Shown piece by piece: positions 1-4,059 of a stretch of DNA of 22,552 nt (positions within the stretch are counted from its first letter, which is position 1; every line of letters starts with the position of its first letter). Source of the stretch: a virus; the IMG/VR virus record IMGVR_UViG_3300025759_000766, positions 1 to 22,552 of that record; one strand, written 5' to 3'. The position numbers and the translations under genes were made by a program. The notes below the pieces were generated by a model that saw nothing but the letters and a program-made list of their open reading frames with translations, did no database searches and was not told the DNA's origin.

Positions 1-110
1 TCATCATTTTCCATACATTGTTGACATGTATGAAATTCATCACATGAACATGTTAGTTCAGGTGATATTTCATACAAATCAAACATATCAGCAGCTTCTT
101 CAAATGACAT
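1..110 (-). CDS. Partial small cysteine-rich protein, putative zinc-binding
   Basis: This leftward reading frame opens at an ATG at 110 and runs off the left edge, so only 36 residues are visible. The visible part is acidic and ends with a CxC pair (C21, C23) and a CxxC pair (C29, C32) with H27 between them, a pattern compatible with a small zinc-binding knuckle. The ATG is preceded by an A/T-rich stretch, as in the other leftward genes, but the repeated promoter cassette is not directly upstream. Instead a strongly structured intergenic stretch (170-284) lies there. I do not recognise a family. The function is unknown, and the frame is supported only by its openness and its position. Confidence 0.5.
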   Translation of the reverse strand, partial: MSFEEAADMFDLYEISPELTCSCDEFHTCQQCMEND

Positions 111-145
111 AACTACTTATTTAAAAGGTTAAAAAATAAGAGAAC

Positions 146-303
146 TCTCACAAGGTTGCAACCCTTGAACCACGGCCCCTACCTCTCGGAAGATTACTAG
201 CTGTTATCTAAGTAACAGTAGGTTTATAAAGAATATACTTTATAAAGATTAATGACTATGCGCGACTAGCCATAATCACCGTGGGTCTGTATCCTGCAAT
301 TGG
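146..303 (-). ncRNA. Structured noncoding stretch with multibranch fold
   Basis: No gene is visible between 111 and 315, but the stretch folds strongly on paper. CCACGG (170-175) pairs with CCGTGG (279-284). GATTACTAG (192-200) pairs with TAATC (273-277) and CTAG (266-269) with a three-base bulge. The enclosed space holds a 6-bp hairpin (201-206 with 213-218) and a perfect 9-bp hairpin (223-231 with 238-246). A further hairpin, CAAGG with a seven-base loop and CCTTG, lies at 151-167. The strand is inferred from the flanking leftward genes. It could be a 3' untranslated region, a processed RNA or a regulatory element. I could not make it fit a tRNA. Confidence 0.45.
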
Positions 304-315
304 ATGAGAGTTAAT

Positions 316-651
316 TCAATTACCCTTCATTAAAGAAAGGGCATACAGCTTCATCTTTTCCTGTATTTCTACAGGAAATAGATGGTCTTCAATGTAAAAT
401 GGGTCAATCTCTTTTATATAGAAAAGAGGAACAATCGTTGGAACTCTATCTGCAAAAGGCTCAGGCTGTCTATATACCTCAATCTTATTTTCCTCTGCGA
501 GAGCATAATACTCTGTATTTTTTTTAATGTGTCTCAAAGCTCCTTGAACAAGCTCAGGAATAGCTTTACGACCTTCTTCCTCTGAGAAGACAACTTTACT
601 TTGAGCAAAGTCATCTCCATGAAGGGTCTGCCAAATCATGTATACTTTCAT
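316..651 (-). CDS. Hypothetical protein, 111 aa
   Basis: This is a complete leftward frame from an ATG at 651 to a TGA at 316-318. The product is a mixed-charge soluble protein without membrane segments or a motif I recognise; the C-terminal half is rich in Pro, Phe, Tyr and Ile. The start is supported because the sequence before the ATG (CATAAAACTATAAATTAAT plus a few bases) closely resembles the A/T-rich leaders in front of the genes starting at 1468, 2687 and 3000. The rightward frame at 382-585 on the other strand is a shadow. Function unknown; probably an early phage protein. Confidence 0.75.
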   Translation of the reverse strand: MKVYMIWQTLHGDDFAQSKVVFSEEEGRKAIPELVQGALRHIKKNTEYYALAEENKIEVYRQPEPFADRVPTIVPLFYIKEIDPFYIEDHLFPVEIQEKMKLYALSLMKGN

Positions 652-727
652 AACAATTAATTTATAGTTTTATGAAGTTAATAATAACGATACGACTCTT
701 GTGTATTGTCAGGTCTTTAAAAAAAGA
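652..727 (-). promoter_or_regulatory. Divergent copy of the repeated leftward leader cassette
   Basis: This stretch sits where the leader cassettes of the other leftward genes sit. It keeps the A/T-rich segment before the ATG, an ACAATACACA-like block on the minus strand, and an AT-rich hairpin at its upstream end (TCTTT 714-718 with AAAGA 723-727). The GGCAAT inverted repeat is missing; a shorter GTTA-TTAT-TAAC inverted repeat stands near that place. I read it as the promoter and 5' leader of the 111-aa gene, more weakly supported than the other copies. Confidence 0.4.
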
Positions 728-946
728 GGAAAAAGGGTAGATGAGTGACAAACAACTCTGTTAGTCCGAGCATAACGGATATTTGCTGTGTTTGTCACTC
801 ATCAGAACCTCATCTCAGTGCACGCTACCATTGCATAATACTAAGTAAGGTAATTAATCTTACGTTTCTTACACAATGCTGAGAGTCTCTTGGTCTTTTC
901 CCCAAGGTAAAAAGACGGCAGATTATACTCATGCCAGGAGTCAGTA
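728..946 (-). ncRNA. Structured 3' region with perfect 15-bp stem
   Basis: No convincing gene lies between 728 and 946. The main feature is a perfect 15-bp inverted repeat: GATGAGTGACAAACA at 740-754 against 789-803. The 34-base interior holds a smaller hairpin, TCCG (765-768) with CGGA (776-779) around a seven-base loop. On the minus strand the big stem is followed by a T-rich tract (about 738 to 719), so it may double as a transcription terminator for the gene ending at 947. The long ordered loop is more than a terminator needs. The CCGAGCATAACGG core at 766-778 nearly repeats at 1939-1951. Confidence 0.5.
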
Positions 947-1468
947 TCAGAACGGTGCAGAGTCAATGGCTGGAGACGTAGCAGTAGCAGGAACTGCTAC
1001 TTTGTCCACGTCCGTAAGGAAACTCCGAGAAGGAGTTCCTGTGGTAAGTTCGGTATGCCTGTACACAGGCAAACCACCCTTCGTTACCACCAGACCAGTC
1101 TCTGGGTTGGTTTTGGGCGTTTGGTTCGGCCGGTTCGGATTCGGAGAGGTATTCTCCAGAACCGAAATATTGACCTCCTGCCCAAAGAGGTCGTTAGCAC
1201 TAAGCACAGGGCGACTGCCGTCATGGTAGTTGCCAGCAACTACGCCCAGTTTCTGCAACTTAGTTGCAGCGAAAGAAAGAATGGCAGTCAGTTTGGTGGT
1301 TGCAGGCACGTCCTGTGCAAATGCAACCAAGCCTCCTTCCCCAGGCTTTTGAACTTCCTGCATGAACTGGACAGAAACCTGTCCAGGACGCTTAGGATTA
1401 GGCATGATTCTACGAACCATACAAGAACCTGTGGAAAGAGCAGTCAAGAAATCAGCAGAGTAACTCAT
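947..1468 (-). CDS. Hypothetical early protein, 173 aa, GC-rich, possibly ssDNA-binding
   Basis: This is a complete leftward frame from an ATG at 1468 to a TGA at 947-949, directly behind a well-conserved copy of the leader cassette. Its base composition is clearly more GC-rich than that of all its neighbours, with many C- and G-ending codons. That fits either very high expression or separate origin. The protein is predicted soluble: an N-terminal half of mixed strand character, then a low-complexity stretch rich in Pro, Asn and Thr (about 105-125), and a flexible tail rich in Ala, Pro, Thr and Ser that ends in Asp-Ser-Ala-Pro-Phe. A flexible tail ending in Pro-Phe recalls single-stranded DNA-binding proteins, but the tail is not strongly acidic and I see no clear OB-fold signature. 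The ssDNA-binding idea is therefore a guess. Two long rightward frames over the same bases (876-1229, 1055-1477) are shadows. Confidence 0.7.
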   Translation of the reverse strand: MSYSADFLTALSTGSCMVRRIMPNPKRPGQVSVQFMQEVQKPGEGGLVAFAQDVPATTKLTAILSFAATKLQKLGVVAGNYHDGSRPVLSANDLFGQEVNISVLENTSPNPNRPNQTPKTNPETGLVVTKGGLPVYRHTELTTGTPSRSFLTDVDKVAVPATATSPAIDSAPF

Positions 1469-1560
1469 AATTTATAGAGTTTAAAATGAATGGCAAAATT
1501 GCCAAAATGTAGTATTGGTGTATTAGCAGGTGTATATCTAAAAAAAACGAAGTTTTTTTT
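1469..1560 (-). promoter_or_regulatory. Repeated leader cassette, copy for the 173-aa gene
   Basis: Read on the minus strand this copy contains, in order: an AT hairpin with a 9-bp stem and three-base loop (1540-1560), an AGATATACACC block, an ACACCAATACTACAT block, the inverted repeat TGGCAA/TTGCCA (1491-1504), and an A/T-rich leader into the ATG at 1468. The stretch from the hairpin to TACATTTTGGC is nearly identical to 1822-1880. TACATTTTG resembles, but does not match, the Bacteroidota minus-7 element TAnnTTTG, because it has three bases where two are expected. Confidence 0.7.
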
Positions 1561-1821
1561 CTAAGAAAGAAGAGCAGTTTTAATTTAGCCTTTGGTGCAT
1601 GTTACTTAAATTCTTTCTCAAGGCTACCAACCTTGCGTTACAAAAGAACTTAATAAGTAACATGCACCTAACCGAGTATTTCTATGAGCATGGCTGCAAG
1701 ACCAAGTGGTATCTCATAGTATATACTCTTGTCTAATCCCCAGAAGCCAATTCTGGTAGATTAAATAGGAATGACATAGGCGTGCCATCCCTGAGCAATC
1801 CGCTCGGCAATCCTTGCACAT
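1561..1821 (-). ncRNA. Candidate stand-alone noncoding RNA with its own promoter cassette
   Basis: A leader cassette (1822-1880) points into this 260-base gap, but no convincing gene follows. The gap is full of self-complementarity. A perfect 15-bp stem (1594-1608 with 1654-1668) encloses TTCTTT/AAAGAA (1611-1616 with 1643-1648) and CAAGG/CCTTG (1619-1623 with 1631-1635) around a seven-base loop. Upstream of it on the minus strand are CCAGAA/TTCTGG (1740-1745 with 1751-1756) and CTATGAG/CTCATAG (1682-1688 with 1713-1719). The hairpin at 1540-1560 with its T-run could end the transcript. A 35-codon frame at 1714-1821 starts where the inverted repeat of the cassette should be; I think it is fortuitous. 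Confidence 0.5.
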
Positions 1822-1880
1822 CGCCAAAATGTAGTATTGGTGTACTGGTAAGTGTGTATCTAAAAAAACGAAGTTTTTTT
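1822..1880 (-). promoter_or_regulatory. Repeated leader cassette without a following gene
   Basis: This copy has the AT hairpin (stem AAAAAAAC at 1862-1869 with GTTTTTTT at 1873-1880, loop GAA on the plus strand) and the same promoter-like block as 1505-1540, nearly base for base. It diverges after TACATTTTGGC, losing the second half of the inverted repeat and the A/T-rich leader. Conservation therefore stops about where a transcript would start, which suggests that the hairpin-to-TTGGC part is the promoter. Confidence 0.65.
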
Positions 1881-2042
1881 AAAAAGCAGTTTTAATTCAT
1901 GCTTAGGAATATGAAAGCGTGCAAGTCCCTTTTTATTACCGAATATAACGGCTGAACGAGAAAAGGGTCCGCAATTAGATGAATTTCACACCTTAACCCT
2001 TACACAGAAGATGTAAGTTATCTTACTCTTCTATACTTTCAT
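1881..2042 (-). ncRNA. Structured noncoding stretch downstream of the 51-aa gene
   Basis: This gap has several nested complementary segments. ATGAAAG (1911-1917) pairs with CTTTCAT (2036-2042) and closes the whole stretch. Inside are CCCTTTT (1927-1933) with AAAAGGG (1961-1967), and within that CCG/CGG (1939-1941 with 1949-1951) around a seven-base loop. A long hairpin has GAAGA plus GTAAG (2007-2017) pairing with CTTAC plus TCTTC (2022-2031), with one bulged T. The 3' end (minus strand) carries TTAAAACTGCT before the AT hairpin at 1862-1880, which is also found before the hairpin at 1540-1560. No reading frame of note was seen. Confidence 0.45.
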
Positions 2043-2071
2043 GAAAAATCGGGCAGTTTTATATCATGCCC
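2043..2071 (-). terminator. Possible intrinsic terminator after the 51-aa gene
   Basis: On the minus strand GGGCA (2071-2067) pairs with TGCCC (2055-2051) around an 11-base loop, and is followed by GATTTTTC. It lies 12 bases after the stop codon of the 51-aa gene. The stem is short and the loop long, so termination may be partial and the structured RNA beyond it may be read through. Confidence 0.45.
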
Positions 2072-2082
2072 AGGATACAATC

Positions 2083-2238
2083 TTATTCCTCTCCAGATAC
2101 ATTCTGGAGGAAGTCGTGCATGACCTGAATAATTTCGTTAAACTCATCAGGTGTAAGGTACGTTTCTTCTTCCTCCTCAAAGAGGAGGAAAGAATTCCAT
2201 ACATGCTCCACTAATTCGAGATATTTCTCGTCATCCAT
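2083..2238 (-). CDS. Hypothetical small acidic protein, 51 aa
   Basis: This is a leftward frame from an ATG at 2238 to a TAA at 2083-2085, too short for most ORF cut-offs. The product is very acidic, with a run of five Glu at residues 21-25, and predicted helical: Leu, Val, Phe, Ile and Trp are spaced as in two amphipathic helices around a T-P-D-E turn (29-32). The start is fixed by a copy of the leader cassette ending just in front of it. Small acidic early phage proteins often bind or inhibit host proteins or mimic DNA, but nothing here shows the target. I do not recognise a family. Confidence 0.65.
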   Translation of the reverse strand: MDDEKYLELVEHVWNSFLLFEEEEETYLTPDEFNEIIQVMHDFLQNVSGEE

Positions 2239-2306
2239 AATGTTGAAATTTAAAATTTACGGCAATATTGCCAATATGTAGTTTCGGTGTTCTGGCATTT
2301 GTTATC
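2239..2306 (-). promoter_or_regulatory. Repeated leader cassette, copy for the 51-aa gene
   Basis: This copy contains the perfect palindrome GGCAATATTGCC (2261-2272), the block ACACCGAAACTACATATTG on the minus strand, and an A/T-rich leader to the ATG at 2238. The triloop AT hairpin of other copies is replaced at the equivalent place by a conventional terminator hairpin (2314-2336). Confidence 0.6.
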
Positions 2307-2336
2307 TTAAAAAAAGACACCATATAATGGTGTCTT
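2307..2336 (-). terminator. Intrinsic terminator of the 27-aa gene
   Basis: On the minus strand AAGACACC (2336-2329) and GGTGTCTT (2321-2314) form an 8-bp stem with a seven-base loop, followed directly by a T-run. It starts eight bases after the stop codon of the 27-aa frame. This is a standard Rho-independent terminator and supports that the tiny upstream frame is a real gene. Confidence 0.85.
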
Positions 2337-2343
2337 CTTTTTA

Positions 2344-2427
2344 TTATACTCCTTCAATGAAGGAGTGTAGGATTAATCCAATAACAAACACTACTAAGAT
2401 GATTTGAATAGCCAACAATCCAGCCAT
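2344..2427 (-). CDS. 27-aa single-membrane-segment microprotein
   Basis: A very short leftward frame runs from an ATG at 2427 to a TAA at 2344-2346. Residues 4-20 are almost entirely Leu, Ile, Val, Ala, Phe and Gly with one Gln, enough for one membrane-spanning helix; a short His-Ser-Phe-Ile-Glu tail follows. It is flanked by an A/T-rich leader like those of the other leftward genes and by a strong terminator eight bases after its stop, which argues against chance. It lies downstream of a 62-aa gene with two probable membrane segments, so the two could act together in the host membrane, for example in superinfection exclusion or as membrane-active early proteins. That function is conjecture. 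Confidence 0.55.
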   Translation of the reverse strand: MAGLLAIQIILVVFVIGLILHSFIEGV

Positions 2428-2462
2428 AATTTAAAATTTTAATAAATGAAATAATATTTATA

Positions 2463-2488
2463 GGGCCCCACACCTAAGTGTGAGACCC
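2463..2488 (-). terminator. GC-rich hairpin after the 62-aa gene
   Basis: GGGCCCCACAC (2463-2473) pairs with GTGTGAGACCC (2478-2488), allowing two G-T pairs, around a four-base loop, ten bases after the stop codon of the 62-aa gene. The sequence beyond it on the minus strand is AT-rich but not a clean T-run, so it may terminate only partly or protect the 3' end, allowing read-through into the 27-aa gene. Confidence 0.6.
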
Positions 2489-2498
2489 CAGTTACGTT

Positions 2499-2687
2499 CT
2501 ACTTGTAGTTCTTCTGATAATCAGAAGAACACACTCTCATCACGGATATAAATCCGAATGAGAAAACAAATGTCATAATCCAAGTAGCTAAATATACACT
2601 ACCTTCATCGCCATACATTGCTGGTATCACCAGCGAAAAACAACTTACTATGAGAGCAAACAAAATCCGAAATCCTAAATAACCCAT
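2499..2687 (-). CDS. Small membrane protein, 62 aa, two membrane segments
   Basis: This leftward frame runs from an ATG at 2687 to a TAA at 2499-2501, with a full leader cassette ending just before the ATG. Residues about 3-25 and 32-50 are hydrophobic and separated by a short acidic turn (Tyr-Gly-Asp-Glu-Gly), giving a two-helix hairpin with a polar, Lys-ending tail. I do not recognise a family. Two-helix small proteins can be holins, superinfection-exclusion proteins or inhibitors of host membrane complexes. The position in the leftward arm, far from the lysis genes at 4934-6249, argues against a holin, but it cannot be excluded. Confidence 0.7.
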   Translation of the reverse strand: MGYLGFRILFALIVSCFSLVIPAMYGDEGSVYLATWIMTFVFSFGFISVMRVCSSDYQKNYK

Positions 2688-2772
2688 GACAATAAATTTA
2701 GAGTTTATGGCAACATTGCCAATATGTAGATTTGGTCAACAGGTATGTGTCATCTAAAAAACGAAGTTTTTT
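2688..2772 (-). promoter_or_regulatory. Repeated leader cassette, copy for the 62-aa gene
   Basis: On the minus strand: AAAAAAC-TTC-GTTTTTT hairpin (2772-2756), AGATGACACATACC, TTGACCAAATCTACATATTG, the inverted repeat TGGCAA/TTGCCA (2721-2708), and the leader ATAAACTCTAAATTTATTG into the ATG. The AT hairpin lies 13 bases beyond a strong independent terminator (2785-2813), so it is not needed to end the upstream gene. Confidence 0.7.
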
Positions 2773-2813
2773 AAAGAAAAAAGAGAGAGCCCTGCATTAT
2801 CTGCAAGGCTCTC
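2773..2813 (-). terminator. Strong intrinsic terminator of the 60-aa gene
   Basis: On the minus strand GAGAGCCTTGCA (2813-2802) pairs with TGCAGGGCTCTC (2796-2785), with one G-T pair, around a five-base loop, followed by TCTTTTTTCTTT. It begins about five bases after the stop codon at 2818. Confidence 0.9.
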
Positions 2814-2817
2814 ACTT

Positions 2818-3000
2818 TTAGAATGGACCACTACCTTCACGGTAGTCTTCCAAAAATGTATTTATCGCATTTTCAATCTTTTCATCTTCTACTACTTTAT
2901 ATATAGTAAAATAGTGGTTGGCTAAGATTAAGATTTCTTCTAAAGACTTTGCTTTAGCCACCTCAGTCTTTATAGACTCCATGATTTCACAATACTCCAT
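2818..3000 (-). CDS. Hypothetical small helical protein, 60 aa
   Basis: The open frame extends upstream to an ATG at 3195, but the first 65 codons run through a full copy of the leader cassette (3001-3090) and the region before it. I therefore place the start at the ATG at 3000, exactly where the cassettes of the neighbouring genes put theirs. The 60-residue product is predicted all-helical and acidic, with a Met-Glu-rich start, a hydrophobic middle (EEILILANHYFTIYKVV) and a tail ending Glu-Gly-Ser-Gly-Pro-Phe. It ends in Pro-Phe, as does the 173-aa protein at 947-1468. It has a strong terminator of its own. Function unknown. Confidence 0.75.
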   Translation of the reverse strand: MEYCEIMESIKTEVAKAKSLEEILILANHYFTIYKVVEDEKIENAINTFLEDYREGSGPF

Positions 3001-3090
3001 GACACTAAGTTTTAAGTTTGTGGCATTATTGCCACAATTTAGAATGGGTGTACTGGCGTATGTGTATCTGAAATAAACGTAGTTTATTTC
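3001..3090 (-). promoter_or_regulatory. Repeated leader cassette, first of the leftward arm
   Basis: This is the copy nearest the divergent region. It has the hairpin GAAATAAAC-TAC-GTTTATTTC on the minus strand (9-bp stem, three-base loop, 3070-3090), AGATACACATACGCC, AGTACACCCATTCTAAAT, and the inverted repeat TGTGGCA/TGCCACA (3019-3036), then an A/T-rich leader to the ATG at 3000. The hairpin stem differs in sequence from the other copies, but the changes are paired on both arms, so the fold is kept. Confidence 0.7.
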
Positions 3091-3585
3091 TTCAAAATAA
3101 CTTTGGCAATCATTCCCCGCGAAGCGGGGGGTACTAAAATCTAAAAAAACTTTAATGGGGTTTTTTATATAAGCCCTCACAAAAATTACTCTCATAAATT
3201 TTTTGCCTCACAAAAACCACTCTCACAAAATTTTCACTATTAGCAAGGGGGGGGGTTACTTTCTTTTTCTCAGATAAGTACCTGTCTTTTTCAAGTTACT
3301 TTTTTTCTCACACTCACAATCCTTAAATAACCCTTGGATAGATAGAAGCAAATACCCCTATTTTTATCTACCTTTCGTGATAAAACTATTGGTATCAATG
3401 ACTTGTAAAGACATATTAAAATTTATATTATCATTACAGAATGACTACTATTCATCGTGAGATATACTATTAGTCATTACAGAATGAATAGTATGCATTT
3501 TTTCAATGAACTTCTAGTAAAAACTTTCTCACAATTGCACATTTCTGTACCCCGTTATTCATTTTTTTAATGTATATTTACAGGC
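3091..3585. promoter_or_regulatory. Divergent control region between the two arms
   Basis: About 500 bases without a supportable gene separate the leftward and rightward arms. Features seen are a GC hairpin CCCCGC-GAA-GCGGGG (3115-3129), a roughly 31-base imperfect tandem repeat starting with CCTCACAAAAA (3175 and 3206), and a run of nine G (3247-3255). GTTACTTT-plus-T-rich-plus-CTCA repeats occur at 3255 and 3295. The direct repeat TCATTACAGAATGA occurs at 3431-3444 and 3474-3487, the second copy lying inside an inverted repeat ATACTATT/AATAGTAT (3464-3471 with 3487-3494). TATATTTA at 3573-3580 resembles the Bacteroidota minus-7 element TAnnTTTG but ends only five bases before the ATG, so it would give an almost leaderless message. 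I read the repeats as operator-like sites for a phage regulator. Confidence 0.55.
3431..3494. repeat. Direct repeat plus inverted repeat, operator-like
   Basis: Two perfect 14-base copies of TCATTACAGAATGA lie 43 bases apart (3431-3444 and 3474-3487), which is about four helical turns. The second is embedded between ATACTATT (3464-3471) and AATAGTAT (3487-3494). Spacing and symmetry suit a dimeric or cooperatively binding regulator. The winged-helix gene starting at 3586, about 90 bases downstream, is a natural candidate for binding here, but that is inference. Confidence 0.5.
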
Positions 3586-4059
3586 ATGAAGGATGACGAA
3601 TTTAAGATCTATCAAGAGGAGAAATTACCAGATGGTACAATTCCTATTGATCCAGCTACTGGTGAAATTAAAGAGGTGATTGTACATGAGCATGTGTACA
3701 AGGTAAAAGATGATAAGGAATTTGTACTTTGTTATGTACATCTTCTTAATGCTATGAAGAGAGATATGACTCTCGCAGAGATATGTGTGTTTGCCTTTTT
3801 GGTAGAAAGATATGGTGATGGCAGGGAGTTCTCTGTAAATAAATCAATGAGGGAGCTTATATGTGAAGAGACTAAGGTTACTAATATAGGTACGGTAAGT
3901 AATATTATAAAGTCTCTTTGTGATAAAGATGTACCTATGTTGATTAAGCTTGGTAGAGGGTTATATCGTGTAAATCCAAGATATGCTTTTAAAGGCAAAC
4001 ATGATTTAAGGAATAAACACTTAGAAACTATTATTTTTAAACTTAAAAAGAAGGCGTAA
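3586..4059 (+). CDS. Winged-helix DNA-binding protein, RepL-like
   Basis: This is the first gene of the rightward operon, 157 aa, ATG at 3586. Residues about 1-45 are charged and flexible, with a P-D-G-T-I-P-I-D-P-A-T-G-E segment. Residues 46-140 have the order of a winged helix-turn-helix: helices around CYVHLLNAMK and LAEICVFAFLVER, a recognition-helix region KVTNIGTVSNIIKSL, and a wing ending MLIKLGRGLYRVNPRYAFKGK. The ending L-G-R-G-x-Y-R-V-N-P-x-Y-x-F-K-G is the kind of sequence seen in RepL-type replication initiators and related phage regulators. It could start replication or control the divergent region directly upstream. The stop overlaps the next ATG (TAATG). Fold fairly likely, role uncertain. 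Confidence 0.75.
   Translation: MKDDEFKIYQEEKLPDGTIPIDPATGEIKEVIVHEHVYKVKDDKEFVLCYVHLLNAMKRDMTLAEICVFAFLVERYGDGREFSVNKSMRELICEETKVTNIGTVSNIIKSLCDKDVPMLIKLGRGLYRVNPRYAFKGKHDLRNKHLETIIFKLKKKA

Follow-up and report, generated by a model that had tools for sequence, protein, structure and literature searches.

The question raised by this locus is what is made from a promoter that no evident gene follows. The window analysed here (the whole stretch of 22,552 nucleotides, 22.5 kb, of viral DNA) is part of a crAss-like phage. PHROG matches were obtained for its terminase, portal and major head proteins; between this terminase and the one of Cellulophaga phage phi14:2 identity is 26%. Small genes on the minus strand, read leftward, occupy bases 1–3200. 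The rightward genes are headed by a 157-aa protein (3586–4059, plus strand), for which Pfam gives a RepL-like match (plasmid replication) at E 1.2e-5. The initial annotation had proposed that one cassette of the leftward region drives a highly folded noncoding RNA.

The cassette without a credible gene and the predicted fold of RNA1

Five cassette cores are present in the window, all on the minus strand, where 0.06 would be expected, and genes follow four of them. These four lie at 1501–1520 (P1, before the 173-aa gene), 2270–2289 (P3, before the 51-aa gene and then RNA2), 2718–2737 (P4, before the 62-aa gene) and 3031–3050 (P5, before the 60-aa gene at 2818–3000). The cassette P2 (1820–1880, core 1823–1842) is followed by no credible gene and would drive the RNA designated RNA1. 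The near identity of P2 to the cassette of the 173-aa gene, remarked on before, is borne out: the core CACCAATACTACATTTTGGC is the same in 20/20 positions at 1823–1842 and 1501–1520 (both minus strand), and the 61-nt blocks 1498–1558 and 1820–1880 are 82% identical.

RNA1 is best drawn as a unit of about 283 nt at 1543–1825 on the minus strand, roughly the extent given initially but slightly wider than its 1561–1821. The 3′ end would be formed at an A/U hairpin terminator, AAAAAACTTCGTTTTTT (1542–1558, minus strand), the T-run hairpin with which the unit had been said to end; three perfect copies of it are found in the window. As had also been claimed, the unit holds no credible gene, since no reading frame in it exceeds 45 aa.

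The predicted structure of RNA1 is a closed, multi-arm fold. For 1543–1850 the folding z score is −5.16, and 0 of 100 dinucleotide shuffles folded as well. The perfect 15-bp stem described earlier pairs 1668–1654 with 1608–1594, and the two stems nested inside it have 8 bp (1650–1643/1616–1609) and 7 bp (1635–1629/1625–1619). Further hairpins, also foreseen, are recovered with the other main helices at mean pair probabilities of 0.89–1.0. In the prediction a closing helix (1805–1800 with 1577–1572) encloses four arms, at 1792–1767, 1765–1732, 1728–1674 and 1668–1594, and a 6-bp hairpin, GGCGAU...AUUGCC, occupies the 5′ terminus (1806–1825). The region 1–3400 is unusually structured on both strands, coding parts included (z averages about −3 there and about −1 in the rest), so strong folding by itself is not diagnostic of RNA1. 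RNA1 has no tRNA identity, and no Rfam family reaches its gathering score there. Homologues were sought through the neighbouring proteins, DNA similarity, the promoter pattern and terminase relatives, and none was found by these routes; the near-identical strain contigs L142 and L143 leave the region uncovered. The fold is thus a prediction without covariation support.

The cassettes of the mRNAs, other than that of RNA1, have an A+T-rich leader of about 25–45 nt ahead of the ATG. Their transcripts begin with a dyad, GGCAANNUUGCC, at the place where RNA1 has its GGCGAU...AUUGCC hairpin. A structured 5′ end may therefore be common to the transcripts of all five cassettes, which supports the inferred start of RNA1. 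The GGCAANNTTGCC dyads at the mRNA cassette starts (1501–3050, minus strand) are perhaps a 5′-protecting hairpin or an operator.

RNA1 has its own promoter and terminator and no ORF, that is, the layout of a stand-alone small RNA. This part of the initial proposal stands: a promoter, a structured RNA of about 283 nt, a terminator and no gene. The reading built on it is supported in part. Judged from the sequence, transcription of RNA1 would start at a copy of the leftward promoter cassette that belongs to it alone.

Neighbouring RNAs and the alternatives for RNA1

The initial annotation overlooked two features of the surroundings: a phage-wide pseudoknot in the adjacent RNA2, of which RNA1 keeps a decayed remnant, and a duplicated block of RNA 3′ end, terminator and promoter common to RNA1 and RNA2. 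RNA2 (1882–2078, minus strand, like all features of this section) is the next RNA upstream of RNA1, and a copy of a 26-nt H-type pseudoknot stands at each of its ends. Its structured body (1910–2050) is closed by CAUGAAAG/CUUUCAU(A). Copy a (2051–2076) starts after the TAA of the 51-aa gene at 2083–2238, with the arrangement TAA-GATTGT-ATCC. Copy b (1884–1909) follows RNA2 and not an ORF; it makes the 3′ end of RNA2, just before the RNA2 terminator hairpin (1863–1879), which lies inside the upstream edge of the P2 cassette. The model built from the pseudoknot scores copies a and b at E 3.5e-10 and 5.2e-10, values that are somewhat flattered because both copies were rows of its training alignment. 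Independent of this training are their exact match to the 17-nt core and the formation of all 7 pairs.

A divergent copy c (914–942) heads RNA3 and reaches only E 0.45 with the model. It starts after the TGA of the 173-aa gene (TGA-TACTGA-CTCC), and by inspection both crossing stems form, the second of them shortened. RNA3 (715–915) is the 3′ region of the 173-aa gene; it is structured and contains a T-run and a perfect 15-bp stem (740–754/789–803). Another structured 3′ region, RNA4 (118–315), lies after the 111-aa gene and is closed by AACUCUCA/UGAGAGUU.

Within RNA1, alignment with copy b reveals a decayed copy d (1574–1600) with 3 mismatches. The loop and the 3′ strand are kept and the first stem is lost; in the predicted fold the 3′ strand is now part of the closing helix of RNA1. 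With the first stem lost and no score from the model, copy d is ruled out as a working pseudoknot. RNA1 itself is therefore not counted as a member of the pseudoknot class; its neighbours are members. Since 1496–1612 aligns closely with 1818–1924, RNA1 sits between duplicated boundary blocks, and it would have originated beside the duplicated block of RNA 3′ end, terminator and promoter.

These surroundings bear on whether RNA1 could be a leftover, a decayed 3′-UTR or gene remnant lying without function between duplicated promoter-terminator blocks. The degenerate pseudoknot copy, the duplication of the boundary block and the negative homologue searches all favour such an origin. Decay would, however, soon erase features such as the unchanged promoter core (20/20) and the intact helices with up to 15 perfect base pairs, and we consider a leftover rather unlikely. 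It is highly improbable that RNA1 serves as a short mRNA encoding the Cys-rich, 35-codon frame at 1714–1821 (MCKDCRADCSG...). This frame does have an ATG, but it would begin no more than about 5 nt from the start site inferred for the transcript, inside the 6-bp hairpin. The A+T-rich leader seen in the other cassettes is missing, and translation would leave out about 170 nt that are strongly folded. A function as antisense or sponge RNA, acting on phage or host transcripts, would have a precedent in the phage K noncoding RNAs, for which targets are predicted (PMC9241854). Almost the entire RNA1 is paired, however, and its best complementarity within the window is 15 bp including G-U pairs, close to the length expected by chance, so that a role of this kind seems unlikely.

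A stand-alone phage RNA is the most likely reading of RNA1. Given the compact closed fold and the 5′-terminal hairpin, its most likely role is that of a stable structured RNA. As such it would work in trans, binding a protein or host machinery, rather than serving as a message or as simple antisense RNA. We propose with moderate confidence that RNA1 is encoded by a stand-alone noncoding RNA gene of the phage and that the 26-nt pseudoknot serves as a protective 3′ boundary in its neighbours. The crAss-like phages, a group whose noncoding RNAs have received little study, would in this way gain a candidate RNA gene. Of greater interest is the pseudoknot system.

Structure, distribution and possible role of the pseudoknot

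A scan of IMG/VR with GCATGANNTAAAACTGC returned at least 120 stretches. Their flanks, outside the fixed letters, pair in a crossing manner (NWCCU-RRGC-An-GW'N'-nUAAAACU-GCYY). An unbiased covariation test was carried out on 116 distinct sequences among the matches listed, chosen without a requirement for pairing. Ranked by mutual information, the top four of all possible column pairs are the crossing-stem pairs of the pseudoknot itself. Among these 116 listed sequences, column pairs n1 and r2 are each paired in 110 (shuffle maxima 70 and 96), r1 in 102 (shuffle maximum 92) and the extension pair in 86 (shuffle maximum 69). In a diverse 50-sequence alignment, picked partly by pairing, both partners vary in each of the 8 pairs and 97% of cells are paired versus 74% after shuffling; when the partner was slid by one column, pairing dropped to 34%. 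Three elements are invariant: the AAA of the loop, the A that follows stem 2 and a single C in loop 1. In a variant found in L008, L047, L080 and L091, AAAAAGGCTC replaces AAAACTGCTC and the stem is kept. A promoter role at the DNA level was ruled out, as both stems covary.

The pseudoknot occurs in more than 100 IMG/VR contigs from many unrelated phages. Named phages in which all pairs form include Mycobacterium phage Labelle, cyanophage S-RIM4, Paracoccus phage ParMal1, Nostoc phage NMeng1, Vibrio phage D456 and a microvirus. Labelle has a single copy, at 56,440–56,469, and in Arthrobacter phage Molivia the one copy follows SSB. The strict form occurs 9 times in 84,980 bacterial and archaeal genomes. 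Among crAss relatives, the pattern search found it in 0 of 14 and the model search in 1 of 10 (G010, with two copies).

The position of the element relative to stop codons is narrowly set. With upstream open frames of at least 60 codons considered, 66 of 225 copies start 6 or 7 nt after a stop codon (39 at 6 nt, 27 at 7) and 0 of 225 start at 5 nt or less; a control position 200 nt away was nearly empty. Copies a and c of the window obey this spacing, each at exactly 6 nt. Some copies lie 100–400 nt from an ORF stop, and small ORFs or noncoding RNAs can intervene. By inspection, the upstream proteins are diverse (DUF932-like, SSB-like, Hsp20-like, catalase-peroxidase, DNA polymerase). Downstream, 26 of 171 copies have a tRNA that starts at a distance of 3–12 nt; a tRNA ends just upstream in 0 of 171. 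Copies within one locus share the same strand in 46/46 loci. Of 220 copies, 21 have a run of six T within the next 60 nt, compared with a background of 3%, and terminators may act jointly with some of the copies. Taken as an RNA structure and as an element linked to stop codons, the pseudoknot is strongly supported.

Several contigs carry recurrent arrangements around it. In L024 (9193–9490), L056 (4627–4938) and L095 (318–673) a conserved gene of about 55–60 aa (MTLGGYTYQIGDLFTTSKTG...) lies between two pseudoknots. After this gene comes a structured RNA with GCGAAAGUCC, somewhat hammerhead-like and without an Rfam match in L024. A conserved short RNA, TCGCCAGGCTGATTAGGGCGATCATAGAAATACTATAGAG, directly follows the pseudoknot in the phage contigs L016 (9977), L047 (6933) and L080 (8780; match-strand coordinates). 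Tandem pairs separated by only 12 nt are present in L062 (398–462) and L090.

A helix 6–7 nt after a stop codon sits approximately where the mRNA enters the terminating ribosome, and so the ribosome need not melt the pseudoknot. Placed just ahead of the terminating ribosome, the structure would probably block 3′-to-5′ exonucleases. A downstream tRNA or noncoding RNA would be cut from the transcript, and the pseudoknot would then shield the RNA upstream. The stop-codon spacing, together with such removal of the downstream tRNAs and noncoding RNAs, fits a 3′-boundary element that stops 3′-to-5′ exonucleases. Protection of bacterial RNAs by 3′ secondary structure has been described (PMC3997798). 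In the window, the pseudoknot would be the 3′ boundary of RNA2 and of the 51-aa gene, and probably also of the 173-aa gene. Tentatively, we extend this protective role to the whole set: a 26-nt pseudoknot common to unrelated phages may cap the 3′ ends of mRNAs and noncoding RNAs where the terminating ribosome ends, separate messages from tRNAs or structured RNAs in polycistronic transcripts and organise at least three new structured RNAs here.

Rfam files the related GP20-b as cis-regulatory, and a regulator of the downstream gene is the role assumed there. The pseudoknot of phiAQ113 does lie upstream of GP20, and some copies are 8–60 nt ahead of a start codon. The distance to the upstream stop is nevertheless sharply fixed (6–7 nt) while that to the next start is broad, and in many cases the copy is followed by a tRNA or noncoding RNA or forms the end of an RNA; this role is accordingly thought unlikely. 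Stimulation of stop-codon readthrough or other recoding, as by the retroviral readthrough pseudoknots, would draw on the similar spacing of recoding pseudoknots. We attach very little probability to it, as tRNA genes are often next and the in-frame continuation to the next stop is short, a median of 7 codons, on which ground readthrough was rejected. Mimicry of type III antitoxin RNAs (ToxI-like), sequestering a host endoribonuclease, is scarcely more than conceivable. Such antitoxins are H-type pseudoknots and phage mimicry of them is known, but no Rfam match to these families was found, most copies are single and tied to stop codons, and one consensus holds across phages of very different hosts. 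A protective 3′ boundary is the role we favour. So tiny an element, with strong covariation and a strict position at stop codons in unrelated phages, points to a common, unnamed control of phage RNA ends.

Comparison with known systems

The pseudoknot has no Rfam family of its own and appears there only as the first hairpin of GP20-b (RF03003). That hairpin (GuC-ag-ccgca-GgC-gUAAAAg-ugcgg) is the same pseudoknot, with the UAAAA loop and the crossing stem in the same columns. GP20-b, however, has a second hairpin as well and is classed as a cis-regulatory element for GP20, whereas the pseudoknot described here lacks the second hairpin, follows many genes and precedes tRNAs. In the window, copies a and c follow the 51-aa and 173-aa genes and precede RNA2 and RNA3 rather than a GP20 gene. 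At the GP20-b gathering score (36.2 bits) there was no match in the window or in the pseudoknot loci searched. The phiAQ113 sequence is matched by both models, by GP20-b at 26.2 bits, below gathering, and by the model built here at E 2.5e-8, this sequence having belonged to its training set. No description of the pseudoknot was found in the literature searched; an earlier one may exist, for example in the source paper of GP20-b.

ToxI RNAs, the type III antitoxins, are small H-type pseudoknots in tandem arrays beside a toxin gene. The pseudoknot described here differs from them in having no tandem array beside a toxin gene and no Rfam match. The gene 32 mRNA of phages T2 and T4 likewise carries an H-type pseudoknot (PMC3014915), but that one lies in the 5′ leader and binds gp32, and is unlike the present element in sequence and position. 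RNA1 is far shorter than GOLLD and ROOL, matches no Rfam family and has no known relatives. It resembles these RNAs and the phage K noncoding RNAs, which are transcribed, structured phage RNAs without a protein (PMC9241854, PMC12286853), in the structured, protein-free transcript that it would produce from its own cassette.
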